DNA of 34,497 bases, taken from positions 1 to 34,497 of the forward strand of contig DWWN01000008.1 of NCBI GenBank assembly GCA_019119685.1, in the 5' to 3' direction. The notes under the pieces are model-generated. The model saw nothing but the letters and a program-made list of their open reading frames with translations, had not been told where the DNA came from and did not search any database. Of the stretch, positions 7,642-27,187 are shown in pieces. Position 1 is the first letter of the stretch. Every line of letters begins with the position of its first letter. This DNA is from Candidatus Faecalibacterium faecigallinarum (GTDB lineage: Bacteria; Bacillota; Clostridia; Oscillospirales; Ruminococcaceae). Both the position numbers and the translations under genes were made by a program.

Positions 7642-7843
7642 GTCCCATCCAGCCGACATGTGCGGATGGATGGGACACATACAGGGAAATTTAGCGCAGA
7701 GAGTGTGCGAGGCCACAAGGCCGAGTGCGCGGTTCTGCGCTAAATTTTGTCTAAAAGGGGGATATTAGGGGGAAAGGATTTCTGACGCGCGGATGCGCGC
7801 AGAAATGGGTTCCCCCTAAAGCGTGGCGCTTTTGCGGCACGCT
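7642..7843 (+). repeat. Family A structured element, copy 1 (candidate RNA)
   Basis: Four stem-loops in order. P1: GTCCCATCCA/TGGATGGGAC (7642-7651 with 7667-7676), 15-nt loop containing GACATGTGCG. Then the unpaired ACATACAGGG. P2: AAATTTAGCGCAGA/TCTGCGCTAAATTT (7687-7700 with 7734-7747), enclosing GTGTGC-GA-GGCC-ACAA-GGCC-GA-GTGCGC. P3: TTAGGGGGAA/TTCCCCCTAA (7765-7774 with 7810-7819) around an ATTTCTG/CAGAAAT hairpin. P4: AGCGTGGCGC/GCGGCACGCT (7820-7829 with 7834-7843), TTTT loop. Copies 2 and 3 keep the plan with compensated stem changes. This copy lies 3' of the flavoprotein gene on the same strand and is followed by a terminator, so it may be its 3' UTR or be processed from it. Confidence 0.85.
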
Positions 7844-7846
7844 AAA

Positions 7847-7897
7847 GGACCCGGCTGGCTGACGGTGCAATACCGCCGGTCCAGCCGGGCCTTTTTA
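7847..7897 (+). terminator. Intrinsic terminator after family A copy 1
   Basis: CCCGGCTGG pairs with CCAGCCGGG (7850-7858 with 7881-7889), and a T5 tract follows at 7892-7896. It would end transcripts from the repressor-flavoprotein unit and the repeat; it lies just beyond the convergent tatC stop. Confidence 0.75.
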
Positions 7898-7922
7898 TAA
7901 CGTTTTGGAGAAGGCGGGAGGA

Positions 7923-8723
7923 TCAATCCTCATCGTCATCATCCTCATCGTCCTCGTCGTCTTCCGCTTCCTCGTGCTTTTTATAGAAAATCTTGCACAG
8001 GGCGGTACTGACCACGTACAAAATACACATGGGCAGGGCCACCATGGTCTGGGAAACGACGTCGGGCGGGGTGATGACGGCCGCCACAAAGAAGATCAGA
8101 ACGATCATGACGCCCCGGGCGCTCTTCATCAGGGCGGGGCTGACAATGCCCATCCGGGACAGCACCACCACGACCAGCGGCATCTCAAAGACGGCGCCGA
8201 AAATCAGGAAGATGGTGATGCAGAAACTGACGTAACTGGCGATACTGGTCGTCTGTACGATGTAATCTGCGCCTTCCAGGGTAGCCATGAAGTTGAGCAT
8301 GAAGGGCAGGGAGACGAAGTAGGCGAACAGCACACCCACCACGAACAGGCCCAGGCCCATCACCAGCACCAGGCCGAAGAAAAAGCTCTCGCTCTTTTTC
8401 AGGCCCGGCTTTGCAAAGGCGTAGATATTGTAGGCGATGAAAGGAATGTCCACGATCAGCGCGGCGATCAGGGCGACCCGGAAATACTGGATCAGTTTTT
8501 CCTGCGGGTCGATCGAGATGAACTCGAAGGACCCCGAGGCCATGGCCGTCAGGATATTGATGAGCTGGTCGGCAACGGCCAGGAACCCCAGGAAAGCCAC
8601 AGCATACAGCACCGCACAGAACACCACGCGGTTGCGCAGTTCTTTCAGGTGGCCGCCCAGGGTCATGCTGCCGTCGGGGCCCATCACCTCAGCGCCTTTT
8701 CTGTGCTTAAATAGTGTGGCCAC
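7923..8723 (-). CDS. Sec-independent protein translocase subunit TatC (266 aa)
   Basis: Core membrane subunit of the twin-arginine translocase, the receptor for Tat signal peptides. The N-terminal cytoplasmic motif HLKELRNR (residues 25-32) is the family signature with the conserved Glu28. Six hydrophobic segments follow, with the typical segment SFFFGLVLVMGLGLFVVGVL in the middle and a conserved proline-rich VITPPD near the last helices. The C-terminus is an unusually acidic tail of Asp/Glu. The start is GTG at 8723, with GAGGAG overlapping the end of tatA. Only 3 nt separate the tatA stop from the GTG, so translation is probably coupled. It is the last gene of a tatB-tatA-tatC operon. Confidence 0.95.
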   Translation of the reverse strand: MATLFKHRKGAEVMGPDGSMTLGGHLKELRNRVVFCAVLYAVAFLGFLAVADQLINILTAMASGSFEFISIDPQEKLIQYFRVALIAALIVDIPFIAYNIYAFAKPGLKKSESFFFGLVLVMGLGLFVVGVLFAYFVSLPFMLNFMATLEGADYIVQTTSIASYVSFCITIFLIFGAVFEMPLVVVVLSRMGIVSPALMKSARGVMIVLIFFVAAVITPPDVVSQTMVALPMCILYVVSTALCKIFYKKHEEAEDDEDDEDDDDED

Positions 8724-8726
8724 AAA

Positions 8727-8942
8727 TTACTCCTCGTCGCTCTTGTCGGTCTTTTCAGCCTTCTCGGTCTTGGCCTTCTTGGTGGTGGTATCATCGTCGT
8801 CATCGTCGTCGTCGTTGATGCCTTCCTGGAAGCCCTTCATGGTCTTGCCGAACATCTTGCCCAGCTTGGGCAGGTTCTTGGGTCCAAAAATGATGAGGAC
8901 GACGAGAAGGATCATCAATAATTCAGTAGGTCCGATACGCAT
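8727..8942 (-). CDS. Twin-arginine translocase subunit TatA (71 aa)
   Basis: Pore-forming Tat subunit. It has a single N-terminal membrane helix (MRIGPTELLMILLVVLIIFG), the hinge motif FGPKNLPKLGK typical of TatA, an amphipathic helix, and a low-complexity charged tail with eight consecutive Asp followed by Lys/Glu. AAAGGAG lies 9 nt before the ATG. It sits between a longer TatA/B-like protein and TatC, which gives this organism a three-gene Tat locus, while many Firmicutes have only TatA and TatC. Confidence 0.92.
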   Translation of the reverse strand: MRIGPTELLMILLVVLIIFGPKNLPKLGKMFGKTMKGFQEGINDDDDDDDDTTTKKAKTEKAEKTDKSDEE

Positions 8943-9040
8943 AATGTACTACTCCTTTTACTTTGCCGGGCAGACAGAAAGCCCGGGTCACTACTCTACA
9001 CAGCCGCTCAGCGCGGCTTGCTGCATGGTTTAGGGCGGCG

Positions 9041-9601
9041 TCAGACCGCTGCGGTCTTGCCGGCTTCGTCGGCGGCCTCGGCGGGTGCGGCGGCTGCCGG
9101 CGCTTCGGCTGCGGCCTGGGCGGCGGGGGCCGCTTCGGCTGCGGGCGCTGCGGCGGCTTCGGCGGGCTTTGCCTCAGCGGCCGCCTGGGGGGCTGCACCG
9201 GCGTCCGCGGCAGGTGCGCTCTCGGCGGTCCCGGCTGCAGGGGCAGCCTCCTCGGTCAGCTCCTCCAGCTCTTCCACAGGCTCTTCCGCGGCTTTGGCGG
9301 CGGCCTCTTCCTTGCTGGTCTTGCCGATGCCGGTAAAGCTCTTGGTCACGTCCTTGACGCTGTTGTCGATATCCTTCTTGATATCCGTCAGGGGAGAGAT
9401 GGCTTCTTTCAGGGGCTGCTGGATCTCATTCAGCGGCTCCACGATGTTCTCCTGGATATCCTTGGACGCCGTGCTGGTGTACTTGCGCAGTTCGCGCAGC
9501 ATCTTGCCCAGCTTGCGCGCGTACTCGGGCAGCTGGTTGGGCCCGATGAACACCAGCGCAACGATGACAACGACGAGCAGCTCGGTAAATCCGATCTTCA
9601 T
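9041..9601 (-). CDS. TatB-like twin-arginine translocase subunit (186 aa)
   Basis: A second TatA/B-family protein and the first gene of the operon. Residues 1-20 form the membrane helix (MKIGFTELLVVVIVALVFIG). It is followed by GPNQLPEYARKLGK and a long amphipathic region (about 35-90), then a 90-residue Ala/Glu/Pro-rich tail probably disordered. Lack of the FGP motif and the longer helical region favour TatB over TatA, but this distinction cannot be proven from sequence alone. Start at 9601 with AAAGGAA upstream; a longer frame to 9706 has no support. The gap of 98 nt to tatA contains only the tatA ribosome binding site. Confidence 0.85.
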   Translation of the reverse strand: MKIGFTELLVVVIVALVFIGPNQLPEYARKLGKMLRELRKYTSTASKDIQENIVEPLNEIQQPLKEAISPLTDIKKDIDNSVKDVTKSFTGIGKTSKEEAAAKAAEEPVEELEELTEEAAPAAGTAESAPAADAGAAPQAAAEAKPAEAAAAPAAEAAPAAQAAAEAPAAAAPAEAADEAGKTAAV

Positions 9602-9721
9602 GTATACACGATTCCTTTCCGTCTCCTGGCCGGCGCAGCGCCGGCTTCGTTGACTGCATTGATACGCCCTGCCTGGGCCGGACGGAGCTTCTCGGCCGCC
9701 GGCCAAATTGCGGACACAGCA

Positions 9722-9750
9722 AGTATAGCATAATCCGCGTGACTTGACCA
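9722..9750 (-). promoter_or_regulatory. Putative tatBAC promoter
   Basis: On the minus strand, TATACT (9722-9727) is preceded by 17 nt and a weak -35, TGGTCA (9745-9750). The leader to the tatB start would be about 115 nt. Confidence 0.35.
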
Positions 9751-9928
9751 GATGTTTTTAGCGCCTAACAGGTAAAATTTCTGTCATTTTGGGCCTGGAA
9801 AGCTGCTTTTTAGAGCGGGGGAACTCTGTCCTCTGCATTTGTACCAGAAAAATAGAGACGGAATATGAGGCGCTTATGAATTTTTTGTGAATAATCGGGA
9901 AAAACGGCGCGCTTGTGTCGAAAGTGTG

Positions 9929-9952
9929 AAAAAAGCCCGGCCGAAGCCGGGC
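9929..9952 (-). terminator. Terminator of the PTS IIC gene
   Basis: On the minus strand GCCCGGC-TTCG-GCCGGGC (9935-9952) is followed by a T6 run (9929-9934). Classical TTCG-loop intrinsic terminator 43 nt after the stop codon. Confidence 0.9.
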
Positions 9953-9994
9953 AGAAAACCGACGGACTGTCCGCACGGACAGGTTCCGGGAAGG

Positions 9995-11053
9995 TCAATC
10001 CAGTTTCAGATCGCCCTCTTTGATCCAGCCCAGACGGCGCTCGATCTCGCAGAAAAGGACGCTGAGCACCGCCGGCAGGACAAAGCACAGCAGGACCATG
10101 CCGGCCCAGTCCCAGGGGGTGACGGCGGCTTTCACGCCGGAGGACACGTCGCTCACCCAGCCGGTGTAGACCCCGATGGGGCCCACCATGCCGCAGGTGC
10201 CCATGCCGGAGGAGACAGCCGCGCCGTTCATTTCCAGGTGGAACAGGCAGGTGGCCATGGGGCCGGTGATGGCGCTGGCCAGGGTGGGAGCGATCCAGAT
10301 GCGGGGGTTGCGGACGATGTTGCCCATCTGCAGCATACTGGTGCCCAGGCCCTGGCTGACCAGGCCGCCCACGCCGTTTTCCTTATAACTCATCACGGCA
10401 AAGCCCACCATCTGGGCGCAGCAGCCGGCCACCGCCGCGCCGCCGGCCAGGCCGGTCAGGCCCAGCGCCGCGCAGATGGCCGCCGAGGAGATGGGCAGGG
10501 TGAGGGCCACCCCGACGATCACCGACACCAGCACGCCCATGACGAAGGGGGACTGCTCGGTGGCCCACATGATGAGGGCGCCCACCCGGCTGGCCGCCGC
10601 GCCGATGGGGGCGGCGATGAGCAGGGCCAGCCCTACCCCCGAAAAGATGGTCACCAGCGGGGTGACCAGCAGGTCGATCCTGGTCTCCTTGCTGACGGCT
10701 TTGCCCAGCTCGGCGGCCACGATGGCGATGAGCAGCACCGCCAGGGGCCCGCCCGCCCCGCCCAGCGAGTTGGAGGCCCAGCCCACCGTCACCAGGCTGA
10801 ACAGGACAAAGTTGGGGGCGTGGAGGGCGTAGCCGATGGCGCAGGCCATGGCCGGGCCGCTCATGGCCGAGGCGTACCCGCCGATGGTGGCCAGCAGCTC
10901 GATGCCCAGCTGCTGGCCCAGGGTGTTGAGGATGGTGCCGATCAGCAGGCTGGCGAACAGGCCCTGGGCCATAGCCCCCAGAGCGTCGATTAGGTACCGC
11001 TGGGGGGTGATGACGATGTCTTTGCGTTTTAAGAAATTTTTCACATTTTCCAT
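9995..11053 (-). CDS. PTS-type IIC membrane permease (PTS_EIIC_2 family, 352 aa)
   Basis: Polytopic membrane protein with about nine or ten hydrophobic segments. It begins with the family-typical LKRKDIVITPQRYLIDALGA and then AQGLFASLLIGTILNTLG (near residues 8-45), and has Gly-rich loops such as SSGMGTCGMVGPIGVYTGW. It matches the PTS_EIIC_2 group annotated as PTS sugar transporter subunit IIC. No IIA, IIB or HPr gene is adjacent, so the substrate and even true PTS coupling are unknown. The ATG at 11053 has AAAGGCGG upstream; the longer frame to 11134 begins in the promoter region. Single-gene unit with its own terminator. Confidence 0.8.
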   Translation of the reverse strand: MENVKNFLKRKDIVITPQRYLIDALGAMAQGLFASLLIGTILNTLGQQLGIELLATIGGYASAMSGPAMACAIGYALHAPNFVLFSLVTVGWASNSLGGAGGPLAVLLIAIVAAELGKAVSKETRIDLLVTPLVTIFSGVGLALLIAAPIGAAASRVGALIMWATEQSPFVMGVLVSVIVGVALTLPISSAAICAALGLTGLAGGAAVAGCCAQMVGFAVMSYKENGVGGLVSQGLGTSMLQMGNIVRNPRIWIAPTLASAITGPMATCLFHLEMNGAAVSSGMGTCGMVGPIGVYTGWVSDVSSGVKAAVTPWDWAGMVLLCFVLPAVLSVLFCEIERRLGWIKEGDLKLD

Positions 11054-11120
11054 TTTGGAACCGCCTTTCCGGTCGAAAAAGGGGGCCGCGCCCCCAAAAC
11101 AGGTTCTACAGACGGCACAC

Positions 11121-11149
11121 AGTATACCATACACCTGTCAAGACAGCAA
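11121..11149 (-). promoter_or_regulatory. Putative promoter of the PTS IIC gene
   Basis: On the minus strand TTGCTG (11144-11149), 17-nt spacer, TATACT (11121-11126). A TTGACA also lies inside the spacer but is only 9 nt from the -10, too close to serve. Confidence 0.45.
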
Positions 11150-11307
11150 GCCGCCGGGCAGATTTTAGGCGATTTGACAGGAATTGCCGCAAATCCGTGC
11201 AATGATTCTGGCGGCTGGGACGTATTACACACAGCAGTTCCCTGCCCGGGCCCCCGTCCGGCCTGGTGCGGGAACGCCTGAGCACGCCAGACAGACGCCT
11301 TTCAAGA

Positions 11308-11337
11308 TTGACGGCAGAGCGCATTCTGGTGTATACT
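11308..11337 (+). promoter_or_regulatory. Promoter of the GH25 lysozyme gene
   Basis: TTGACG (11308-11313), 18-nt spacer, TATACT (11332-11337), 43 nt before the ATG. Confidence 0.65.
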
Positions 11338-11379
11338 TAGAACACAAAATTTGGATGTACGGAGGCTGAGGGAGACGGA

Positions 11380-12849
11380 ATGAAACGGAAGATTTCGACC
11401 TTGTTTTCAAAAAGAACGGGAGGGGGCCGCGATCTGGGCCAATGCGTTGCAGCGGCAGTCATCGCCCTGACCCTCATGGTGACGGGGGCCGCGGGCTATG
11501 CGGCCGCCGCGTTTGAGCCGCAGGTCCTGCTGGTAGAACCGGGGGCCGTATACGACGAGGAAGCAGAGCTTGCCGGGACGCAGACCGCAGAGGCTGCGCC
11601 TGTCCAGGCAGAACCAGAGGCAGCGGAGCCGGAAGCACCGGTGCTCCGGTCTGCCCCTGTGCCCGCCGCTGAGACGGCCGAGCCCGCAGCGGAGGCCCAG
11701 CCTGAGGCAGCCCCTGCGGCAGAGGAAGCAGCAGAAGCCGCGCCCGCCCCGCAGGAGGCCGCGCCGGCACCGGCTGCCCCCGAGCATCCCGCCCAGGAAC
11801 CGGCGGCAGAGCCTGCCGGGACGCCTGCCCTGACTGAGGCGGAACTTGCAGAAGAAAACGGCCTGTCCGCCGCCCAGACGGCCCAGGCAGGCTTCCAGCA
11901 GATGACCGACGCCACCGCTGCCGAGGACCCGCTGGCCGCCCGCTATGAGGCCACCACCATCACCCCCGACGCCAGCGGCCGCATCACCATCACCCCGGAC
12001 GAGTTCAACGCCATGCTGGCGAACCAGAACATCGACTGGGACGAGGAGAACTGCCTGAGCTGGTTCTTCAACTGGTTGTTCAACTGGCTGTTCCCCGCCA
12101 AGGAGACCCCGGCCTATTCCGGCTGGCGGACCGAGAGCGGCAAGACCTACTACTACGACCCCTCGACCCATGAGCGGCTGACCGGCCTGCAGACCATCGA
12201 CGACAAGATCTATTATTTTGACGCCAACGGCGTCCGCCAGGACAACGTGACCTTCGGCATCGACGTGTCCCGCTACCAGCAGAAGGTGGACTGGAAGAAG
12301 GTCAAACAGGCCGGCGCGTCCTTTGTCATCATCCGCATCGGCTACCGCGGCTACGAGACCGGCGCCCTGGTGCTGGATTCCATGTTCGAGAGCCATCTGG
12401 CCGGGGCCAAGGCCGCAGGCCTCAAGACCGGTGTTTACATCTTCAGCCAGGCCATCAACGAGGACGAGGCCCGTGAGGAAGCCTTTGCCTGCGCCTACGT
12501 CCTCAACGGCCGCAGCCTGGACTACCCCGTCTACTTTGACAGCGAGTACAGCACCAGCGCCCACACCGGCCGCGCCGACAACCTGAGCAAGGCCGAGCGG
12601 ACCGCCTGCGCTGTGGCCTTCTGCGAGGAGCTGAAGAAGTACGGCTACGAGCCGGGCGTCTATGCGTCCACCAGCTGGTTCCAGAACCATCTGGACCTGT
12701 CGGCCCTGCAGGGCTACCGCATCTGGAACGCCCACTACGGCGTCAGCGCCCCCAGCATCGACTGCGATATGTGGCAGGGCAGCTGCACCGGCCAGCTGAG
12801 CGGCGTCAGCAGCAGCGGCGTCGATCTGAACATTAGCTACATGGGCTGA
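11380..12849 (+). CDS. Exported GH25 lysozyme with cell-wall-binding repeats (489 aa)
   Basis: Predicted N-acetylmuramidase acting on peptidoglycan outside the membrane. The ATG follows GAGGGAG. Residues 1-45 form a basic segment and hydrophobic signal/anchor (CVAAAVIALTLMVTGAAGYA). Residues about 55-165 are an Ala/Glu/Pro-rich linker. Residues 220-246 are Trp-rich (LSWFFNWLFNWLF). Residues 248-288 hold two aromatic choline-binding-type repeats (SGKTYYYDP...; DDKIYYFDANGVRQ). The GH25 barrel begins at FGIDVSRYQ with Asp295 and carries the acidic pair in YFDSEYS, Asp387 and Glu389, the expected catalytic residues. It could serve wall remodelling or killing of neighbours; nothing nearby (no holin, no phage genes) points to a phage endolysin. 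A HAD phosphatase gene follows after 81 nt. Confidence 0.92.
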   Translation: MKRKISTLFSKRTGGGRDLGQCVAAAVIALTLMVTGAAGYAAAAFEPQVLLVEPGAVYDEEAELAGTQTAEAAPVQAEPEAAEPEAPVLRSAPVPAAETAEPAAEAQPEAAPAAEEAAEAAPAPQEAAPAPAAPEHPAQEPAAEPAGTPALTEAELAEENGLSAAQTAQAGFQQMTDATAAEDPLAARYEATTITPDASGRITITPDEFNAMLANQNIDWDEENCLSWFFNWLFNWLFPAKETPAYSGWRTESGKTYYYDPSTHERLTGLQTIDDKIYYFDANGVRQDNVTFGIDVSRYQQKVDWKKVKQAGASFVIIRIGYRGYETGALVLDSMFESHLAGAKAAGLKTGVYIFSQAINEDEAREEAFACAYVLNGRSLDYPVYFDSEYSTSAHTGRADNLSKAERTACAVAFCEELKKYGYEPGVYASTSWFQNHLDLSALQGYRIWNAHYGVSAPSIDCDMWQGSCTGQLSGVSSSGVDLNISYMG

Positions 12850-12930
12850 GCCTTCCGCCCGCGCCCCGAACACCGGGGCCGCTGAAAACAAAAGACAAGC
12901 CCTTGCAAGGGCAAGGAGGGGGCTGCGCGT

Positions 12931-13764
12931 ATGGACCACATCGGCCTGATCGCCTCGGATATGGACTACACCCTGCTGGATGAAAACGGCCAGCTGCCCG
13001 GCGGCTTTGCCGAGCTGGTCCGGGCGCTGGAAGAAGAAGGCATCTACTTCGCGGCGGCCAGCGGGCGGCCCCTGTATACCCTCGAGGCCATGTTCCCCGA
13101 CCTGCGGCAGCATATTGCCCTGATCGGGGACAACGGCGGGGCCATCCGCTGGCGGGGCCGGGACATCTACCAGTCCCGGATGCCGGCCGCGGACTACCGC
13201 GAAATGGCCGCCGCCACCCGCGAAGCCGGCGACGTCGGCGTCCTGTGCGGGATGGAGAGCGCCTACGTCGAGCGCCAGTACGAGCGCTACGCCCGCGTGC
13301 TGGGCCAGTTTTACACCCGCGTCACCTATGTGGACGACCTGACCGCCCTGGATGTCCCCGCCGACAAATACACCATTTATCTGCCCCGTGGCGACTCCCA
13401 GGCCGCCTACGACAAGCGCTACGGCAAACTGTATGCCGGGCGGTTCTCGGTGGCGGTGGCGGGGCCGAACTGGGTGGACATCATGAACCGCGGCGTGGAC
13501 AAGGGCGCGGCGCTGCGCGCGCTGGGCCGCAGCCTGGGGCTGGAGCGCGCCAGCCTGATGGCCTTCGGCGACACCTACAACGACGCCGAAATGCTCTGCT
13601 GCGCCAAGTACGGCTTCCTGATGGCCAACGGCAGCCGGGACCTGCGGGCCCGGGTGGCCTTCCTGGCCCCGCCCCACTGGGACCAGGGCGTCATGCGGAT
13701 CATGCGCCAGGTGCTGGCCCAGAGCGGCTGGGTGGAACCTTCCGACTTTACGCCGGCGCATTAA
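12931..13764 (+). CDS. Cof-type HAD-superfamily phosphatase (277 aa)
   Basis: Phosphatase of the Cof/YidA group (HAD-IIB cap), probably acting on sugar phosphates or flavin/pyridoxal phosphates; the substrate cannot be told. All four HAD motifs are visible: SDMDYT with nucleophile Asp10 and Asp12, Ser44 in ASGRP, Lys191 in GVDKG, and GDTYND (213-218). The ATG has AAGGAGGGG 12 nt upstream. It lies 81 nt downstream of the lysozyme gene with only a weak hairpin between, so the two may share a transcript that ends at the terminator at 13798. Confidence 0.9.
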   Translation: MDHIGLIASDMDYTLLDENGQLPGGFAELVRALEEEGIYFAAASGRPLYTLEAMFPDLRQHIALIGDNGGAIRWRGRDIYQSRMPAADYREMAAATREAGDVGVLCGMESAYVERQYERYARVLGQFYTRVTYVDDLTALDVPADKYTIYLPRGDSQAAYDKRYGKLYAGRFSVAVAGPNWVDIMNRGVDKGAALRALGRSLGLERASLMAFGDTYNDAEMLCCAKYGFLMANGSRDLRARVAFLAPPHWDQGVMRIMRQVLAQSGWVEPSDFTPAH

Positions 13765-13797
13765 AACCTGGACTGTTTCTTTTCTAAACAATGTGAA

Positions 13798-13837
13798 AGC
13801 CCCTGCGGTTCCGCACTGGAACCGCAGGGGCTTTTTA
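13798..13837 (+). terminator. Strong terminator after the HAD phosphatase gene
   Basis: A 15-bp perfect stem AGCCCCTGCGGTTCC (13798-13812) with GGAACCGCAGGGGCT (13818-13832), then a T5 tail. The A-rich left side makes it partly usable for the convergent liv operon. Confidence 0.92.
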
Positions 13838-13919
13838 TACTGTGCGTTTTATTACTGCAAGGATAAGGGATTCTGGATAAAAGGCCTGCCGGGGAGACGG
13901 CGGCCGGAGGAAAGTGCGC

Positions 13920-14633: not shown

Positions 14634-14636
14634 AAC

Positions 14637-20546: not shown

Positions 20547-20575
20547 AGTATACTTTTTTGGATGGCATAAGTAAA
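20547..20575 (-). promoter_or_regulatory. MATE gene promoter
   Basis: On the minus strand TTTACT (20570-20575), 17-nt spacer, TATACT (20547-20552). The -35 box overlaps the palindrome at 20572-20587. Confidence 0.6.
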
Positions 20576-20587
20576 ATATATGTTTTA
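20572..20587. promoter_or_regulatory. Candidate LysR operator
   Basis: TAAAATATATGTTTTA is an AT-rich 16-nt imperfect inverted repeat (TAAAA/TTTTA arms) between the divergent MATE and LysR genes. LysR regulators usually bind T-N11-A palindromes in such regions and control themselves and the neighbour. Assignment is inferred. Confidence 0.4.
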
Positions 20588-20628
20588 TATAAAATCCATA
20601 TCAAAGTGAGATGAAGGAGGGCGCGCCT

Positions 20629-21528
20629 GTGCCGGTGCCATACGATTACTACCGCATTTTCTACTACGTTGCCAAATACCGCAGCTTTACCCAGGCGGCC
20701 GCGGCGCTGCACGGCAGCCAGCCCAACATCACCCGGACCATCAACCTGCTGGAACAGGAGCTGGGCTGCCGCCTGTTCGAGCGCAGCCACCGGGGGGTGG
20801 CCCTGACCCCCGAGGGGGAGCAGCTGTTTTCCCACGTCCAGATCATGCAGGAGCAGATGCAGGCCGCTGAATCCGAGCTGGCCAGCCGCCGCAGCCTGCA
20901 CAGCGGGCGGGTGGCCATCGGCGCCAGCGAGACGGCCCTGCACGGGCTGCTGCTGCCGGTGCTGCGGGACTTCAAGCGGCGGTATCCGGGGGTGCGACTC
21001 CAGATCACCAACCACTCCACCCCGCAGGCCATCGAGGCCCTGCGCACGGGGCTGGTGGAGCTGGCGGTGGTGGGCACCCCCTGCGGGGAGCTGGCCGCCC
21101 CGCTGGCCGAGCAGCGGCTACGCCCCTTTCAGGACTTGCTGGTGGGCGGGCCGGAATACGCCCATCTGGCTGGCCGGCCCCTGACCTATGGGGAACTGGC
21201 CCGGCTGCCCCTGATCTGCCTGGGACAGGACAGTTCCACCTTTGCCTTTTACGCCCGGCTCTTTGCGGAAAATGGCGCCGTGCTGGAGCCGGACGTCCAG
21301 ACCGCCACCACCGACCAGCTGGTGCCGCTGGTGCGGTACGGGCTGGGGCTGGCCTTCGTCCCCGAGGACTTTGCCGGGGACGCCCTGGCCAAAGGGGAAG
21401 TGGTCCGCCTGACGCTGGAAGCGCCCCCGCCCCTGCGCTATATCAGCCTGGTGAAAGACAAAAGCCGCCCGCTCAGCGTCGCTGCCATGGAACTGGAGCG
21501 GATGCTGCGGGCGGCCTCCCAAAGCTGA
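20629..21528 (+). CDS. LysR-family transcriptional regulator (299 aa)
   Basis: N-terminal winged helix-turn-helix (about residues 1-62): YYRIFYYVAKYRSFTQAAAA, then SQPNITRTINLLEQELGCRL and FERSHRGVALTPEG. A LysR substrate-binding domain follows (about 85-295). The GTG at 20629 is chosen because AAGGAGG lies 8 nt upstream; the ATG at 20611 lies directly before that ribosome binding site and is unlikely. Divergent from the MATE exporter gene and probably its regulator. It is convergent with, and 3 nt from, the next hypothetical gene, with no terminator visible between them. Confidence 0.92.
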   Translation: MPVPYDYYRIFYYVAKYRSFTQAAAALHGSQPNITRTINLLEQELGCRLFERSHRGVALTPEGEQLFSHVQIMQEQMQAAESELASRRSLHSGRVAIGASETALHGLLLPVLRDFKRRYPGVRLQITNHSTPQAIEALRTGLVELAVVGTPCGELAAPLAEQRLRPFQDLLVGGPEYAHLAGRPLTYGELARLPLICLGQDSSTFAFYARLFAENGAVLEPDVQTATTDQLVPLVRYGLGLAFVPEDFAGDALAKGEVVRLTLEAPPPLRYISLVKDKSRPLSVAAMELERMLRAASQS

Positions 21529-21531
21529 ATT

Positions 21532-22110
21532 TTACCGCCACAGCCGCTTCCAGCGGGCGGCCTGGGCGGCCAGCCAGCGGTCCAGCAGGGGGTGGCTGAC
21601 CCAGGCTTTGCCCGCGCCGCTCTCAATGAGGCGGCGGGCGAGCTGCCGGGGCGCGGCGTCGGCCAGGCCGGGCGCGTCGGGGCCGAGGGTCAACGTCAAA
21701 GCGCAGGAGGCGTCGGGCCAGGGCGGGGCCGCCTCGTCCGACGGCCAGAGGAAGGGCGGCAGCAGCCGCACCGCACAGGTGGCCCGGCGGCCCTCCTCGG
21801 TCAGCATCAGGGCGGCAGGGACCCCGGCGGGGGTGCACCGCAGTTCGGCGGCGAGCACCCGCAGCCGCCCCGGCGGCAAAATCTGGACGAAGCCCGCTTT
21901 GGGGGCGGGGGAGAGGGCGCACCAGTCCCGGGCCTCCTCCGGCTCGATGGGCCAGGCCGGCGGGTCAAATTTGGCGTACAGGCCCGGCAGGGCAAAGCTC
22001 TCGGCCCCGGCCAGCGCCTCCAAAAGCAGGGTGTAAAATTCGGTCATGGGGTGCCCCGGGTCGGGCTGGCCCAGCCCGAAGCCGGGGCGGGTCACTTTTC
22101 CGCCGCCCAT
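21532..22110 (-). CDS. Conserved-looking hypothetical protein (192 aa)
   Basis: I do not recognise a family. The ATG at 22110 has AAAAGGAG 8 nt upstream, which supports translation; codon use matches neighbours. The protein is soluble, rich in Ala, Pro, Leu and Trp, with no signal peptide, membrane helix or nucleotide-binding motif. The N-terminus MGGGKVTRPGFGLGQPDPGHP is Gly/Pro-rich and flexible. Its C-terminal part (RQLARRLIESGAGKAWVSHP...RWKRLW) is predicted helical and basic. It is divergent from bioY by 85 nt and convergent with lysR. Confidence 0.55.
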   Translation of the reverse strand: MGGGKVTRPGFGLGQPDPGHPMTEFYTLLLEALAGAESFALPGLYAKFDPPAWPIEPEEARDWCALSPAPKAGFVQILPPGRLRVLAAELRCTPAGVPAALMLTEEGRRATCAVRLLPPFLWPSDEAAPPWPDASCALTLTLGPDAPGLADAAPRQLARRLIESGAGKAWVSHPLLDRWLAAQAARWKRLWR

Positions 22111-22140
22111 AAACAACGCTCCTTTTCACAAAAATGGGGA

Positions 22141-22169
22141 TTGCTTTTTGAGGCTTTTTCCCTTATACT
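22141..22169 (+). promoter_or_regulatory. bioY promoter
   Basis: TTGCTT (22141-22146), 17-nt spacer, TATACT (22164-22169). The leader would be only about 20 nt. I see no clear BirA or BioR operator. Confidence 0.55.
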
Positions 22170-22195
22170 GGCCCCAGAAAGGCGATGATGAGAAG

Positions 22196-22753
22196 GTGTC
22201 GAGAGAGAAAAAACAGAGCACATCCGCCCTGACCGCCGCCGCGATGATGGCGGCCGTCCTGTGCGTGCTGGGGCCGCTGTCGGTGCCGGTGGGGCCGGTG
22301 CCGGTCGCCATGGCAAACTTTGCCGTCAGCCTGGCCGCCTGGCTGCTGGGGCCCCGCTATGGCGCGCTGAGCGTGGCGGCCTACCTGCTGCTGGGCGCGG
22401 TGGGCGCGCCGGTGTTCGCGGGGGCCGGCGCGGGCGCAGCCGTCCTGTTCGGGCCCACCGGCGGCTATTTGATCGGCTACCTGGCGCAGGCGCTGATCGG
22501 CGGCTGGGCCGTGGAGCGCTCGGGGGGCCGGGCGCTGTGGTCCGGGCTGGGCCTTGCGGCGGGCGTGGCGGTCAGCTACGCCTTCGGCACCGCCTGGTTC
22601 ATCCTGCAGATGGGCTGCACCCTGCCCTATGCGCTGACCGTCTGTGTGCTGCCCTTCATCCCGTTTGACGCGGCCAAAGTGGCGCTGGCGTCGGTGCTGG
22701 GCAGCATCCTGCGCCGCGCCCTGCACCGGGCCGGCCTGCTGCACCACAACTAA
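22196..22753 (+). CDS. Biotin transporter substrate-binding (S) component BioY (185 aa)
   Basis: Membrane S component that captures biotin, either alone or with the shared ECF energy-coupling module. Six hydrophobic segments are present. Family motifs are seen: SVPVGPVPVAMANFAVSLAAWLLG, GALSVAAYLLLGAVGAPVFAG, and the BioY signature GPTGGYLIGYLAQALI. The start is taken as GTG at 22196 since no ATG fits and AAAGG lies 13 nt upstream; this start is less sure than the gene. No EcfA/T or biotin-synthesis genes are nearby, consistent with a biotin auxotroph using a shared ECF module (inference). Confidence 0.9.
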   Translation: MSREKKQSTSALTAAAMMAAVLCVLGPLSVPVGPVPVAMANFAVSLAAWLLGPRYGALSVAAYLLLGAVGAPVFAGAGAGAAVLFGPTGGYLIGYLAQALIGGWAVERSGGRALWSGLGLAAGVAVSYAFGTAWFILQMGCTLPYALTVCVLPFIPFDAAKVALASVLGSILRRALHRAGLLHHN

Positions 22754-22764
22754 AAAACTAGAAG

Positions 22765-22801
22765 AAAAGGCCGCGGCATTCGGAACGCCGCGGCCCTTTT
22801 T
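22765..22801. terminator. Bidirectional terminator, bioY / argF
   Basis: GGCCGCGGC (22769-22777) pairs with GCCGCGGCC (22787-22795), with T5 on the plus side and TTTTCTTCT on the minus side. It lies 15 nt after the bioY stop and 2 nt after the argF stop, so it can serve both convergent genes. Confidence 0.88.
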
Positions 22802-22802
22802 G

Positions 22803-23801
22803 TCAGTTGCCGGTATAGCCCAGCGTGGCCGCCATGACGGACTTGATGGTGTGCATCCGGTTCTCGGCCTCGTCAAAGACGATGCTCTGGGGCCCCTCGA
22901 ACACCTCGTCGGTGACTTCCATGGCGTCCCGGCCAAACCGCTCGCCCATCTCCTTGCCGATGACGGTCTTGTGGTCGTGGAAGGCGGGCAGGCAGTGCAT
23001 AAACACGGCCTGCGGCCCGGCGGCCTCCATCAGGGCGGCGTTGATCTGGTAGGGGGCCAGGTCGGCGATCCGCTCGGCCCACACCTCTACCGGCTCGCCC
23101 ATCGAGACCCACACGTCGGTGTAGAGGACGTCCGCCCCTTTGGCGGCGGCGAGAGGGTCCTCCTCAAAGCGGAGGGTGGCCCCGGTCCCGGCGGCGATGG
23201 CCTGGCACTGGGCGATGAGAGCCGGGTCGGGCCAGTATTTTTTGGGGGCGCAGGCGGTGAAGTGCAGCCCCATCTTGGCGCAGCCCACCATCAGGCTGTT
23301 GCCCATGTTGTAGCGGGCGTCCCCGAAATAGACGAAGTTGATCCCTTCCAGTTTGCCGAAGTGCTCCCGGATGGTCAAAAAGTCGGCCAGGATCTGGGTG
23401 GGGTGGAACTCGTTGGTCAGGCCGTTCCAGACCGGCACGCCGGCGTAGTGGGCCAGCTCCTCTACGATCTCCTGGCCGTAGCCGCGGTACTCGATGCCGT
23501 CGAACATCCGGCCCAGCACCCGGGCGGTGTCGGCGATGGACTCCTTTTTGCCGATCTGGCTGCCCGAGGGGTCCAGATAGGTCACTTCCATGCCCAGGTC
23601 GTGGGCGGCCACCTCAAAGCTGCACCGGGTGCGGGTGGAGGTCTTTTCAAAAATGAGGGCGATGTTTTTGCCCCGCAGCCCGTCGTGGCGGACGCCGGCC
23701 TTTTTCTGGGCCTTGAAGGCGGCTGCCAGGTCGATGAGCGCGCCGATTTCGGCGGGGGTATAGTCGAGCAGCTTCAAAAAGCTGCGGCCTTTCAGATTCA
23801 C
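22803..23801 (-). CDS. Ornithine carbamoyltransferase (332 aa)
   Basis: Joins carbamoyl phosphate and ornithine to citrulline in arginine synthesis. Visible motifs are STRTR (55-59, carbamoyl-phosphate binding), HPTQ (133-136), SMG (233-235, ornithine binding, which separates it from aspartate carbamoyltransferase) and HCLP (269-272, ornithine site). The GTG start at 23801 is preferred: AAAGGGGAG lies 6 nt upstream and the protein then opens [15 protein letters not shown], as most ArgF proteins do. In-frame ATGs at 23831 and 23822 lack a ribosome binding site. It stands alone here; other arg genes must be elsewhere. A candidate ArgR box lies in its leader. Confidence 0.95.
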
Positions 23802-23837
23802 AGGAAACTCCCCTTTCTGCATATATACCATTTAACG

Positions 23838-23861
23838 TGTATAAATAACCGTAAATATGCA
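23838..23861. promoter_or_regulatory. Candidate ArgR box
   Basis: TGTATAAATA-N4-TAAATATGCA, an imperfect AT-rich palindrome, lies just downstream of the argF -10, over the predicted start point. The half sites resemble ARG-box arms. Binding is inferred. Confidence 0.4.
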
Positions 23862-23864
23862 ATC

Positions 23865-23893
23865 ATTATACGCCGCCCGGGCAAAACTGTCAA
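23865..23893 (-). promoter_or_regulatory. argF promoter
   Basis: On the minus strand TTGACA (23888-23893), 17-nt spacer, TATAAT (23865-23870): full consensus. Confidence 0.85.
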
Positions 23894-23908
23894 GATAGAC
23901 AGAATATC

Positions 23909-24110
23909 GTCCCGCCCGGACGACATGTGCGTACGGGTGGGACACATACAGGGAAATGCAGTGCAGAGAGTGTGCGAGGCCGCAAGGCCGAGTGCGCGGT
24001 TCTGTGCTGCATTTTGTCCAAAAGGGGGATATTAGGGGGAAAGAATTTCTGCCGCGCGACTGCGCGCAGAAATTGGTCCCCCCTAAAGCGTGGCGCTTTT
24101 GCGCCACGCT
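23909..24110 (+). repeat. Family A structured element, copy 2 (candidate RNA)
   Basis: Same plan and same length (202 bp) as copy 1. P1: GTCCCGCCCG/CGGGTGGGAC (23909-23918 with 23934-23943, one G-T wobble), loop with GACATGTGCG. ACATACAGGG follows. P2: AAATGCAGTGCAGA/TCTGTGCTGCATTT (23954-23967 with 24001-24014, two wobbles), enclosing GTGTGC-GA-GGCC-GCAA-GGCC-GA-GTGCGC; GCAA is a GNRA tetraloop. P3: TTAGGGGG with CCCCCCTAA around ATTTCTG/CAGAAAT. P4: AGCGTGGCGC/GCGCCACGCT. The wobbles pair only on the plus strand. It starts 16 nt from the argF -35, pointing away from argF, and its P4 ends 2 nt from the convergent dCMP deaminase stop codon, where it may also act as terminator. Confidence 0.85.
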
Positions 24111-24112
24111 GG

Positions 24113-24595
24113 TTATAGGGTGAATGTGACTTGCCGCCCGCTGGCGTGGTAGGGCGTCAGGCGGACGCCGGCCTTTTTCAGCATAAAGCGTGCCGCCACG
24201 CTGGAATCGCTGTCGTGGTACTTGTCGTCGTAGTAGACGATCTCCCCGATGCCCGACTGGATGATGGCCTTGGTGCACTCGTTGCAGGGGAACAGGGTGA
24301 CGTAGATCCGCGCCCCCTTGAGGTTGTTGTGGGCGCTGTTGAGGATGGCGTTCAGCTCGGCGTGGCAGACGTACATATATTTGGTGTCCAAAGGCTCGCC
24401 CTCGCGGCCCCAGGGCATGGCGTCGTCGTCGCAGCCCATGGGCATCCCGTTGTAGCCCAGGGAAAGGATCTTGTTTTCGGGGCTGACGATGCAGGCTCCC
24501 ACCTGGCTGTTGGGGTCCTTCGAGCGCATGGCGGAGAGCAGCGCGATGCCCATAAAGTATTCGTCCCAGTTGATGTAGTCGTTGCGTTGTTTCAT
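24113..24595 (-). CDS. dCMP deaminase family protein, ComEB type (160 aa)
   Basis: Zinc-dependent deaminase of the dCMP deaminase/ComEB family, converting dCMP to dUMP for dTTP synthesis. Zinc and catalytic residues are visible: HAE (78-80) with the proton-shuttling Glu80, and PCNEC (103-107) with Cys104 and Cys107. SQVGACIV and [11 protein letters not shown] are family signatures. The ATG has GGGAGG upstream. Single-gene unit; family A copy 2 lies immediately 3' of it. Confidence 0.93.
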
Positions 24596-24630
24596 AAAAG
24601 GCGCCTCCCTGCGCAGTTTGTTGTGCTGCT

Positions 24631-24659
24631 ATTATACCGTATCAGCGTACAAAACACAA
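24631..24659 (-). promoter_or_regulatory. Promoter of the dCMP deaminase gene
   Basis: On the minus strand TTGTGT (24654-24659), 17-nt spacer, perfect TATAAT (24631-24636), 36 nt before the ATG. Confidence 0.65.
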
Positions 24660-24733
24660 TGCAAAAGCGCCACCTGACAAAGTGCACAAAAGTAAGCTGC
24701 GAACTTTGGAAGGCTAAATTTGGCACAAATCAT

Positions 24734-24761
24734 TTGAAATTGGCTTTGATTGTGGTATTAT
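24734..24761 (+). promoter_or_regulatory. Promoter of the EF-G-like gene
   Basis: TTGAAA (24734-24739), 16-nt spacer, TATTAT (24756-24761); leader about 60 nt. Confidence 0.6.
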
Positions 24762-24827
24762 CTTTGTAAAATATGCCACAAAAGCGGAGAGAAGTCCCGC
24801 CAGGCGGAAAAGAGGGAAAAGACCGTT

Positions 24828-26912
24828 ATGAAATACGCAAGCAACAATATCCGCAATATCTTGATTGCAGGCCATGCCGGCAGCGGCAAGACGACGCTGA
24901 CCGAGGCATTGGTCTATTTCTCGGGCGCTTCCGAGCGGATGGGCCGCGTGGAAGACGGCACCACGATCTCTGACTTCGACCCGGAGGAGGCCAAACGGAA
25001 GGCCAGCCTTTCGGCTTCGGTGGTCCCGGTGGAGTACGGCGGGATCAAGTACAACCTGATCGACGCGCCGGGCCTGTTCGATTTTGAGGCCGGCGAGTAC
25101 GAGGGCATCCGCGCCGCCGAGAGCGTGCTGGTGTGCGTGTCGGGCCGCAGCGGCGTCACCGTGGGCGCCGAGAAGGCGTTCCAGCTGGCCCGCAAGAACG
25201 GCAAGGCCACCATGGTCTTTGTCACCAAGTCCGACCTGGAGCACTCCAACTACTTCCAGATCCTGGAGGACATGAAGATCAAGTTCGGCTCCAGCATCTG
25301 CCCCTGCGTGGTGCCTGCCCGCCTGGACGACGGCACCAGCGTCTACATCAACCTGTTCAGCCAGAAGGCGTTCAAATATGAGAGCGGCAAGCAGATCCAG
25401 GTGGACCTGCCCGACATCGGCCACCGCTTCCAGGGCCTGATCGAGGCCATGAGCGAGGCCATCGCCGAGACCGACGACGAGCTGATGGAAAAGTTCTTCG
25501 GCGGCGAGCCCTTCACCACCGAGGAGATCGTGGAAGGGATGCGCAAGGGCGTCAAGGACGGCCTGATCACCCCCGTGTTCTGCGGCAGCGCCGTCAACCT
25601 GCAGGCGCTGGATATGCTGTTGTACAATATGGACAAGCTGCTGCCCAGCCCGGCCCACGCCGCCGCCATCCCGGCGGAGAACGCCGGCGGCGATCTGGTG
25701 GAGCTGCACTGCGACGCCGCAGAGCCCACCGCCGCCTACGTCTTTAAGACGGTGGCCGATCCCTTCGTGGGCAAGATGAGCTACCTGCGGGTGCTCAGCG
25801 GCAAAGTGACCCCGGGCATGAGCCTGGTCAACGCCCGCACCGGCGACACCGAGAAACTGGGCAAGCCCATGTTCATCTGCGGCAAAAAGCAGACCGACGC
25901 CGACGAGATCACCGCCGGCGACATCGGCGCGGTGGCCAAGATGGTCAGCGCCCGCACCGGCGACACCCTCTGCGACGCCTCCCGCGTGGTCAAGCTGGAT
26001 GCGCCCGTGTTCCCCAGTCCCAGCTTCTTCATGGCCGTCACCGTGGCCAAGAAGGGCGACGAGGGCAAGATCAGCAGCGCGCTGGCCCGCCTGATGGAGG
26101 AGGACCCCACCCTCAGCTACGAGAACAACGCCGAGACCCATCAGCAGATCATCGGCGGCCTGGGCGAGCAGCACCTCGACGTGGTCAAGGCCAAGCTGAA
26201 GAACAAGTTCGGCGTTGAGATCGGGCTGGAAGCGCCCCGCATCGCCTACCGCGAGTCCATCCGCAAGCCGGTGCAGAAGCAGGGCCGCCACAAGAAGCAG
26301 ACCGGCGGCCACGGCCAGTTCGGCGACGTCGTCATCAAGTTCGAGCCCTGCGAGGGCGACGCCATCCAGTTCGAGGAGCAGGTCTTCGGCGGCTCGGTGC
26401 CCAAGAACTTCTTCCCCGCCGTGGAAAAGGGCGTCCGCCTGGCGGCCGAAAAGGGCGTGCTGGCCGGCTATCCCATGGTCGGCATGAAGGCCACCCTGCT
26501 GGACGGCAGCTACCACCCCGTCGATTCCTCCGAAATGGCCTTCATCATGGCGGCCAAGCTGGCCTATAAGGCGGCCATGCCCGAGGCGGGCCCCGTCATT
26601 CTGGAGCCCATCTACACCGTCCGCGCCCACATCCCCAGCGACAACACCGGCGACATCATGGGCGATGTGACCAAGCGCCGCGGCCGCGTGCTGGGCATGG
26701 AGCCCGACGAGGACGGCCTGCAGACCATCATCGCTGAGGTGCCTCTGGCTGAGCTGACCACCTTCACCACCTTCATCCGGCAGACCACCCAGGGCCGCGG
26801 CTGGTTCACCCGCGAGTTCGTCCGCTATGAGGTGCTGCCCGAGAACCTGGTACCCGCCGTGGTCGAACAGGCCCGCAAGCTGGGCAACCTGGACGAGGGT
26901 GCGGACGACTGA
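24828..26912 (+). CDS. EF-G-like translation-factor GTPase (FusA2/type II group, 694 aa)
   Basis: Full-length EF-G architecture: GTPase domain (about 1-275), domain II beta-barrel, and the C-terminal domains III-V (GGHGQFGDVVIKFEP; DNTGDIMGDVTKRRGRVLGM). The ATG at 24828 is preceded by GAGGG; the longer frame begins at the promoter. It differs from housekeeping EF-G in its G motifs: G1 is GHAGSGKT (15-22) where EF-G has AHIDAGKT; G3 is DAPGLFDF (79-86), replacing the catalytic histidine of PGH by Leu83; G4 is TKSD (133-136) where EF-G has NKMD. These traits mark the EF-G-like paralogue common in Clostridia, whose role is not settled; it is not a TetM-type resistance protein by its context. 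Single-gene unit with its own terminator. Confidence 0.9.
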   Translation: MKYASNNIRNILIAGHAGSGKTTLTEALVYFSGASERMGRVEDGTTISDFDPEEAKRKASLSASVVPVEYGGIKYNLIDAPGLFDFEAGEYEGIRAAESVLVCVSGRSGVTVGAEKAFQLARKNGKATMVFVTKSDLEHSNYFQILEDMKIKFGSSICPCVVPARLDDGTSVYINLFSQKAFKYESGKQIQVDLPDIGHRFQGLIEAMSEAIAETDDELMEKFFGGEPFTTEEIVEGMRKGVKDGLITPVFCGSAVNLQALDMLLYNMDKLLPSPAHAAAIPAENAGGDLVELHCDAAEPTAAYVFKTVADPFVGKMSYLRVLSGKVTPGMSLVNARTGDTEKLGKPMFICGKKQTDADEITAGDIGAVAKMVSARTGDTLCDASRVVKLDAPVFPSPSFFMAVTVAKKGDEGKISSALARLMEEDPTLSYENNAETHQQIIGGLGEQHLDVVKAKLKNKFGVEIGLEAPRIAYRESIRKPVQKQGRHKKQTGGHGQFGDVVIKFEPCEGDAIQFEEQVFGGSVPKNFFPAVEKGVRLAAEKGVLAGYPMVGMKATLLDGSYHPVDSSEMAFIMAAKLAYKAAMPEAGPVILEPIYTVRAHIPSDNTGDIMGDVTKRRGRVLGMEPDEDGLQTIIAEVPLAELTTFTTFIRQTTQGRGWFTREFVRYEVLPENLVPAVVEQARKLGNLDEGADD

Positions 26913-26951
26913 GCCGTGACCTTCCCGCGCACAAGTTAAAGACATCCACCC

Positions 26952-26992
26952 GGACCCTGTCGGCACTTCCCTCTGCCGGCGGGGTCCTTTTT
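26952..26992 (+). terminator. Terminator of the EF-G-like gene
   Basis: GGACCCTGTCGGCA (26952-26965) pairs with TGCCGGCGGGGTCC (26974-26987) with two wobbles, followed by T5. Family A copy 3 begins 3 nt further on, in the opposite orientation. Confidence 0.88.
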
Positions 26993-26994
26993 AT

Positions 26995-27187
26995 AGGGGG
27001 CAAGCCCCCTCCAGGGGGACCCATTTCTGCGCGCATTCGCGCGTCAGAAATTCTTCCCCCTGGTATCTCCCGGGGACAAAATTTTCCGGCGAACCGCGCA
27101 CTCGCCGCTGAGGGCGGCTCGCACACTCTCGCCGGAAAATTTCCCTGTATGTGTCCTGCCCGTCCGTACATGCCGGCCGGGCAGGAC
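26995..27187 (-). repeat. Family A structured element, copy 3 (candidate RNA)
   Basis: Read on the minus strand: P1 GTCCTGCCCG/CGGGCAGGAC (27187-27178 with 27162-27153), loop with GGCATGTACG; ACATACAGGG; P2 AAATTTTCCGGCGA/TCGCCGGAAAATTT (27142-27129 with 27092-27079), enclosing GTGTGC-GA-GCCGC-CCTCA-GCGGC-GA-GTGCGC; P3 CCAGGGGGAA opposite TCCCCCTGG, enclosing ATTTCTG/CAGAAAT; P4 replaced by AGGGGGC-TT-GCCCCCT. Every stem differs from copies 1 and 2 yet still pairs, while loops and linkers are kept. It starts 40 nt from the greA -35, pointing away from greA, and converges on the EF-G-like gene. Confidence 0.85.

Follow-up and report, generated by a model that had tools for sequence, protein, structure and literature searches.

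What are three similar intergenic repeats doing within a few tens of kilobases of one Faecalibacterium genome? The window, i.e. the whole stretch of 34,497 nt of Candidatus Faecalibacterium faecigallinarum that we analysed, holds three copies of about 200 nt, at positions 7642–7843 (+), 23909–24110 (+) and 26995–27187 (−). The initial annotation regarded them as an undescribed structured RNA, and we found all three again at its coordinates and on its strands. A covariance model, R1, retrieved every copy with E ≤ 9e-26; copies 1 and 2 are rows of its source alignment and copy 3 is independent of it. Beyond these copies, the R1 scan of the window gave nothing better than E = 0.023. We show below that all three belong to a non-autonomous, MITE-like transposable element, which carries an RNA fold, and are not a free-standing RNA gene.

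The copies have the parts P1, P2/P3 and P4 in the same order, with stems that change in pairs and loops that stay fixed, as originally described. Copy 1 starts about 14 nt further upstream than first stated, with a degenerate left terminal repeat (AGAATGTC, seven of the nine letters of CAGACTGTC; locus L001) and an A-run at 7628–7641 (+). On the same strand follow the P1 hairpin with apex GACATGTGC (7642–7676) and the P2/P3 arm with its tandem GA loop and GTGTGC/GTGCGC helix (7683–7751), both supported by R1, folding and covariation, then the P4 hairpin (7765–7819; folding and covariation) and a right-terminal hairpin, AGCGTG..CACGCT, apparent from sequence and folding (7820–7843). A host terminator adjoins it (7847–7896, +), and a similar hairpin is found at the element-free orthologous site in L157. 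Copy 2 (+; L003) has an altered left end in its sequence (AAACTGTCAAGATAGACAGAATATC, 23884–23908), a P1 hairpin (23909–23943) and a P2/P3 arm with the apical loop GCAA (23950–24018), both seen with R1 and in the fold, a P4 hairpin recognised by folding (24032–24086) and a right-terminal hairpin recognised by sequence and folding (24087–24110). Copy 3 (−) has P1 at 27153–27187 and the P2/P3 arm at 27075–27146 (R1 and folding), and P4, folded with CCA/TGG closing pairs, at 27011–27063. Its terminal repeat is not recognisable, and its right-hand hairpin (AGGGGGCTTGCCCCCT, 26995–27010; sequence and folding) is unlike that of copies 1 and 2. It abuts a terminator-like hairpin (26945–26991, +), identified from sequence and gene calls, of an EF-G-like gene on the + strand that ends at 26912.

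We then asked if the fold is maintained as RNA. Compared with 200 dinucleotide shuffles, the folding energies of copies 1 and 3 have z-scores of −10.85 and −11.20. For the antisense strand of copy 1 the z-score is also very low (−9.89), as expected of any array of hairpins; we counted this against our preferred model. The sense strand of this copy is the more stable of the two (−116.8 versus −97.8 kcal/mol), and the antisense fold lacks an intact P3 helix. Covariation was judged by pair counts against controls with slid partners and shuffles. An alignment of 48 5′ modules (A2), chosen for diversity from 158 after the exclusion of seven odd or truncated row names, has 97.1% of 1863 cells paired over 39 pairs, against 32–47% when partners are slid. 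Changes on both sides, the covariation claimed at the outset, affect 24 of the 39 pairs and 266 cells, versus 78.9 (sd 6.3) in shuffles. A separate alignment of P4 modules (A3) has 98.6% of cells paired; of 91 distinct modules 40 were chosen for it, and 38 rows remain after the omission of two with short or indel-bearing sequence. Pair counts across families also show covariation, in an alignment that was fitted to the model. Over 33 pairs, G·U outnumbers A·C by 68 to 13; therefore the RNA strand is the one that the initial annotation had chosen. At the family cut-offs of Rfam, nothing matches the element in the window, and only tRNAs match in 11 further loci covering short, long and distant forms. 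Matches below the cut-offs are at chance level: three lie on the right-hand hairpin of copy 2 (E = 0.96–7.1) and the others on L040. The internal module looks hammerhead-like, but it matched no Rfam family at cut-off in the 11 loci, and L040 gave chance-level matches alone. A group II-like retroelement, suggested by a partial resemblance of the 3′ strand of P3 to domain V, was considered and set aside, and a pseudoknot between the P1 loop and the ACAU linker was considered by eye. That the structured body is an RNA fold under selection on the sense strand is well supported.

Such patterns might also arise in DNA alone, if template switching or gene conversion corrected palindromes and the RNA had no role. 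Several helices are exchanged as whole cassettes, as this explanation expects. At the three sites with both flanks matched, the body diverges as fast as the flanks, which is also in its favour; we looked for slower evolution of the body at orthologous sites and found none, which argues against strong conservation at the level of the host. Yet the correction of palindromes should erase wobble pairs, and those of P3 are retained (U·G in 48 of 48 rows, G·U in 45 of 48). The unpaired loops are conserved and the bias of G·U over A·C favours one strand, both of which speak against a DNA-only origin. We regard it as quite unlikely.

The distribution of the repeats indicates what carries this fold. 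The genome from which the window comes (2.06 Mb, 85% complete) has at least 45 copies, and BLAST gives 43 matches in it. Among the matches listed in a scan of genome contigs, the isolates Faecalibacterium sp. An121 and An122 also have many copies. The distribution across the genus is patchy (11 of 31 genomes have the element), and other families of the same order have weaker relatives. RNA-model searches scored nine candidates per genome under strict filters, and hence their counts are lower bounds and their misses weak evidence. The sole match in a viral contig (L163), which would have pointed to viral carriage, and a match in water deer (L074) are chance pattern matches without P1. The element has no transposase gene. 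Its consensus ends are CAGnCTGTC[A/G]AAAAA ... GACACGCTG, and its terminal inverted repeats are short and imperfect (CAGACTGTC versus CAGCGTGTC, seven of nine positions matching). The end pattern occurs in 52 of 297 genomes, 12 of which have four or more matches; the pattern read backward, as a control, gives single matches in about 17 genomes, so single matches may be due to chance. Terminal repeats go unrecognised at both ends in 14 of 39 copies of the same genome, some of which lie at contig ends or are long forms, and the RNA fold of these 14 is 98.7% paired. Conversely, a simple test detects no P1-type hairpin in 16 of 49 elements with such ends, including four that have direct repeats, and the ends and the RNA are therefore separable; this counts against our model. 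The body, of about 170–500 nt, is built of hairpins and is modular: P1, P2/P3, optional internal modules (zero to several, each about 110 nt), and P4. Among 155 spacings, which include overlapping loci, 138 are of 12–17 nt and 13 of 119–142 nt, with single values of 250, 301 and 488; the remaining one, of 3961 nt, links parts that do not belong together. No P4 is within reach of 30 of the 185 5′ modules (contig ends and altered copies).

The insertion sites are equally informative. Direct repeats flank 25 of the 49 elements with both ends recognisable, compared with 0.3% of 959 exchanged flanks. Most of these repeats fold as hairpins (22 of 25), ten are exact, and in 19 of 25 at least three T occur within 8 nt beyond the right hairpin copy. 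The other 24 elements have no such repeat, which counts against our model. A hairpin of −12 kcal/mol or lower lies beside the element end in 39 of 48 cases, versus 24 of 48 distant windows. All 36 copies of the same genome with both neighbours called are at the 3′ end of a gene; at other loci 7 of 97 copies lie between divergent genes, again a point against the model. Neighbours were called with a gene caller trained on nine genes of the window that had been scanned with Pfam. A comparison of filled and empty sites gave 31 candidates, in which empty orthologous sites in relatives support insertion; hairpin duplication was seen in only two of the ten pairs examined out of these 31, a further point against the model. 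The element is inserted at intrinsic terminators, often with the signal copied.

Hence, the mobility of the element is well supported. The initial annotation had overlooked it, along with the dispersal, patchiness, empty orthologous sites, terminal repeats, duplicated terminator hairpins and module insertions that reveal it. Its description as an undescribed structured RNA holds for the body, with its covariation and lack of an Rfam match, and fails for the whole unit, which is a mobile element. If the repeats were instead a host RNA standing alone at many loci, with a regulatory or trans-acting function and no connection to mobility, this would explain the covariation, the sense strand and the absence of an Rfam match. 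This view is contradicted by the copy number, the patchiness, the terminal repeats, the duplicated terminators and the empty sites; as a complete account it is unlikely, and we give it very little weight. A subset of copies may have been domesticated as host RNA.

Which enzyme moves the element? Judging from the partial resemblance of the ends, it is probably a transposase of the IS1182 family. Ends of the form CAGCCTGTCGAAAAAGG accompany an IS1182 ORF in L257, L261 and L282, and both ends are present in L258; these are in related genera and at hairpins, and the transposase behind them scores 389 bits against an IS1182 cut-off of 270. At its right end, a hairpin GCGTGTC..GACACGC, the RNA element differs in form from these IS1182 copies. 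In element-bearing genomes the IS1182 copies that we found carry other ends, and none has ends of the element type. The copy in the same genome as the window (L289) has one in-frame TAG and other ends, leaving the element without a matching autonomous partner in that 85% complete genome, and the genome of the IS1182 copy with CAGACTGTC ends (L290) lacks the element. Presence of IS1182 is associated with the element in a test devised after the IS1182 ends were known (Fisher p = 0.013). An IS30-type transposase might be the mobiliser instead: IS1630 of Mycoplasma fermentans, of the IS30 family, makes duplications of 16, 23, 25 and 26 bp (PMC3317919) and, in the cited excerpt, duplicates a hairpin upon insertion as our element does. 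Unlike the latter, it is autonomous and has a transposase of another family, and the excerpt mentions no structured RNA body. The IS30 model matches only two of 20 genomes, the flanks of these two matches have no CAGnCTGTC ends, and no IS30 element with such ends was found among the 20, whereas IS1182 genes do sit behind CAGnCTGTC-like ends. We consider IS30 highly improbable.

Taken as a whole, our model of a MITE-like element at terminators, moved by IS1182 and with a body that is RNA of the 3′ UTR, has a probability of roughly 55%. The family occurs in Faecalibacterium and in relatives within the order, and its ends resemble those of some IS1182-family insertion sequences, whose transposase probably supplies mobility. 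Insertion takes place at the base of an intrinsic terminator hairpin and often duplicates it entirely. The left copy of the hairpin is joined directly to the element and so lacks the remainder of its T-run; the right copy mostly retains one. Transcription coming from the left-hand gene would thus read past the first hairpin, through the element, and halt at the second, making the element a segment of the 3′ UTR. There, in the most speculative step, the RNA might act in cis after insertion, by providing a protein-binding site or a 3′ end that is stable and tolerated, which would aid persistence of the element. Our best guess is a cis-acting role that makes insertions tolerable.

The RNA could instead serve transposition, if a transcript or single-stranded DNA fold were bound by the transposase and assembled the reaction or aimed it at hairpins. 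Another family of the order (L320, L322–L327) has different stems and linkers, yet the P1 apex and the P3 helix recur there beside ends of the same kind and duplicated hairpins. Moreover, a P1-type hairpin is present in 21 of the 25 elements that have direct repeats, and the neighbourhoods gave no sign of a link with specific host genes. Against this reading, the 16 elements lacking that hairpin include four with direct repeats, IS1182 copies with such ends have no P1 in the stretches examined, and the fold is retained where terminal repeats go unrecognised. We see it as possible but unlikely. A stricter variant, which we find decidedly doubtful, would make the folded transcript (the GACAUGUGC hairpin and the GUGUGCGA/GAGUGCGC helix) a required cofactor: an IS1182-type transposase supplied in trans would bind it and, with its help, locate terminator hairpins and duplicate them, in an RNA-assisted DDE transposition, and the element would therefore spread through its transcription in 3′ UTRs.

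Our preferred model has partial precedents. According to the cited excerpt, the BOX repeats of Streptococcus pneumoniae are small, dispersed and MITE-like, with the arrangement boxA–boxB(n)–boxC, a strong fold if transcribed, and an insertion sequence with like ends as presumed mover (PMC3049150). The element shares this modularity, in an A–B(n)–C order whose internal modules vary in number; BOX is an analogue only, compared by architecture. Our element differs in host and order, in its target, since it enters terminator hairpins and often duplicates them in full, and in that pair-by-pair covariation and the sense strand are shown for it. IS1272/TnSha1 of staphylococci, in the IS1182 family, are reported in the excerpts cited to target hairpins, several of them terminators, with little sequence preference; IS1272 removes the stem-loop and makes no target duplication (PMC4923244, PMC5678879). 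Our element also targets hairpins. Unlike IS1272, it has no transposase gene and often duplicates the hairpin; the contrast between deletion and duplication counts against our model. For QMITE2, a MITE of Coxiella burnetii, the transcript is likewise predicted to fold strongly, and small RNAs are reported to arise from the element (PMC10969869); in contrast with ours, QMITE2 has direct repeats of 7–9 bp and terminal inverted repeats of 23–29 bp, and the excerpt of that work does not mention covariation.

These results call for caution, as a candidate regulatory RNA that covaries well and occurs in many copies can turn out to be a mobile element. The element combines a bacterial MITE, a way of inserting by which entire transcription terminators are duplicated, and an RNA fold that is conserved between genera. 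Since insertion can leave a terminator with a T-run at the far end, it suggests how an element may spread among gene ends, do little damage and be transcribed immediately. The fold, which has no Rfam match at cut-off, is a testable case of selection at the RNA level in a bacterial mobile element.

The three copies that the initial annotation had described at 7642-7843 (+), 23909-24110 (+) and 26995-27187 (-) were all read and aligned, and a covariance model retrieves the same three from the window, with no other match there better than E = 0.023. All lie at gene ends. Copy 1 is flanked by an HI0933-like flavoprotein gene (+, ending at 7622) and tatC (-, ending at 7923); the neighbours of copy 2 are a carbamoyltransferase gene (-, starting at 23831) and a dCMP-deaminase-like gene (-, ending at 24113); copy 3 follows an EF-G-like gene (+, ending at 26912) and precedes a greA-like gene (+) that begins near 27363. 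The Rfam scan, proposed earlier as a check of novelty, gave no match at family cut-offs anywhere in the window; with the threshold relaxed to E = 10, the right-hand hairpin of copy 2 drew three matches at chance level (E 0.96-7.1), and copies 1 and 3 drew none. We found no publication on the repeat or its RNA among the open-access papers searched. A further gene of the window, at 639-4922 (+), encodes a product of 1427 aa that combines a beta-helix region with a GDSL-like lipase domain.

The RNA fold is supported by covariation. RNAalifold recovered 38 pairs from 48 diverse 5' modules, 23 of them with double-sided changes. In the named 39-pair structure, 97.1% of 1863 cells are paired in this alignment, against 32-47% when the partners are slid, and double-sided changes affect 24 pairs and 266 cells (shuffle means 15.3 and 78.9). 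For P4 (38 modules), 98.6% of cells are paired and double-sided changes occur in 9 of 22 pairs and 86 cells (shuffle mean 32.9 cells); on one measure, further pair types, P4 shows no excess, since 379 of 500 shuffles equal or surpass the observed value. A cross-genus and cross-family set of 43 distinct rows is 96.2% paired, with double-sided change in 32 of 38 pairs, in an alignment fitted to the model. The sense strand is fixed because the P3 wobble pairs are retained (U.G in 48/48 modules, G.U in 45/48) and because G.U cells outnumber A.C cells by 68 to 13 across the 33 pairs whose consensus is Watson-Crick; this is the strand named originally. Conservation in the 48 modules extends to unpaired positions, namely the P1 apex GACATGTGC, the post-linker letters CAGGGAAA and the GA..GA loop. 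In another family of the order (L320, L322-L327), the P1 apex and GTGTGCGAG..CGAGTGCGC are present again and the other stem sequence differs.

The element is modular. Of 155 module pairs, 138 have a gap of 12-17 nt between the 5' module and P4, and 13 have one of 119-142 nt; gaps of 250, 301 and 488 nt occur once each (one value, 3961, is spurious). The extra DNA consists of modules of about 110 nt with two hairpins each, whose stems vary yet stay paired (12 distinct modules), and one orthologous site has the short form in the own genome (L035) and the long form in a relative (L141). Near an IS30 gene, the own genome has a detached fragment of internal module, GCGGCTAAGCGCAAGAG, that is not part of a recognised element (L232). 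Two copies at contig ends (L072, L137) are interrupted within P2 by identical foreign DNA (ATATAAGTCTTGCCTTTTTGCAC), which may be another insertion sequence, and one copy (L079, near 7178-7300) has its P1 region scrambled and partly repeated.

The left end of the element is CAGACTGTC[A/G]AAAAA; the right end is a hairpin ending in GACACGCTG, whose reverse complement starts CAGCGTGTC and shares 7 of 9 letters with the left end. Among 49 elements from several genera with both ends recognisable, 25 are flanked by direct repeats (score ≥12); of 959 exchanged flanks, 0.3% reach this score. Of the 25 repeats, 22 can fold into a hairpin, 10 are exact, and 21 surround elements that carry a P1-type hairpin. 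A simple test detects that hairpin in 33/49 elements and does not in 16/49; the same ends therefore also carry other bodies. A hairpin of -12 kcal/mol or lower adjoins at least one end in 39/48 elements, against 24/48 windows about 250-300 nt away. Insertion with duplication is visible in two of ten filled/empty pairs examined (L121 versus L098, about 29 bp; L160 versus L018 of the own genome, about 26 bp). No duplication was seen when copy 1 was compared with its matching empty sites, one with a similar terminator (L157) and one with a different hairpin (L090). Own-genome copies with both neighbours called lie between convergent (14) or tandem (22) genes and never between divergent ones (n = 36); other loci (n = 97) include 41 convergent, 49 tandem and 7 divergent sites. 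At tandem sites an orientation antisense to the neighbouring genes is commoner (12 versus 10 and 36 versus 13, respectively). In two genomes (G089, G182), six loci (L203, L211, L221, L225, L227, L230) combine the same left end with another repeat, CCCTCCCTTTGACAAGGGAGG, and conserved flanking sequence.

The end pattern was found in 52 of 297 family genomes, with at least four matches in 12 of these. In several genomes the matches often lie about 150 nt or less from a contig end, as expected from a longer repeated element. Behind such ends, which adjoin a terminator-like hairpin, L257, L261 and L282 have an IS1182-family transposase ORF (389 bits for the L257 ORF, cut-off 270), and L258 is an internally deleted copy with both inverted ends visible. 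Within the genus, 5/11 element-bearing and 1/20 element-free genomes have an IS1182 gene that scores above the cut-off (p = 0.013); of the genomes tested from other genera, 1/13 does. That an IS1182-type transposase moves the element is something we infer, because the IS1182 genes of element-bearing genus genomes have ends other than CAGACTGTC, and CAGACTGTC ends flank the gene of the element-free genome instead. Hairpins are reported as the targets of the IS1182-family elements IS1272 and TnSha1, which delete them (PMC4923244, PMC5678879); the element described here also inserts at hairpins, but often duplicates them. Inverted-repeat duplication is described for IS1630 of the IS30 family (PMC3317919). 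In the own genome the search yielded a single IS1182-family gene (L289, C50:25470-26915); it contains one in-frame TAG, and its ends are likewise different. At L256, a reverse-transcriptase-like ORF, by its look of group II intron type, lies behind an CAGCCTGTCGAAAAAGG end at a hairpin.

A BLAST search of the own genome with copy 1 gave 43 matches, including two trivial 24-nt ones and two halves of one copy, which resolve into 40 elements. Five more (copy 3, C27:19945, a long form on C67, C61:35301 and C65:27255) bring the total to at least 45 in 2.06 Mb (assembly 85% complete). Within the genus, 11/31 genomes have a match, and several of the 20 without one are single-contig genomes. Among the matches listed, named records are chiefly Faecalibacterium (Candidatus F. 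gallistercoris, F. intestinigallinarum, strains An121 and An122, and MAGs), with two Candidatus Gemmiger. Counts from the covariance models are lower bounds: the first matches at least 13/396 family genomes (5/126 genera) and 8/394 order genomes, three in the own genus and five, with much lower scores, in three other families; the broader one matches 2/391 class genomes, both inside the order, and 1/393 phylum genomes, the own genome. The L160 copy, in Candidatus Gemmiger excrementigallinarum, has flanks 96-99% identical to the own genome, and the copy in Candidatus Pullilachnospira (L084) is Faecalibacterium-like; both contigs may be mis-binned.

Where the hairpin is duplicated, its left copy abuts the element directly, and its right copy is followed by at least three T within 8 nt in 19/25 cases. 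Judging from this layout, a transcript of the left gene would pass the first hairpin, take in the element RNA and end at the second. On the opposite strand, a T-run after P1 gives the appearance of a terminator. Own-genome copies with unrecognised terminal repeats (n = 14, including a few contig-end or long-form cases such as L036 and L040) have 539/546 cells paired, and those with both ends kept (n = 9) 348/351. That the fold is intact without recognised terminal repeats suggests that the RNA is under selection after insertion. A counterpoint comes from three sites where both flanks could be matched: there the body evolves no slower than the flanks. An intact fold in an unslowed body would suit a selected fold whose letters change freely in pairs.
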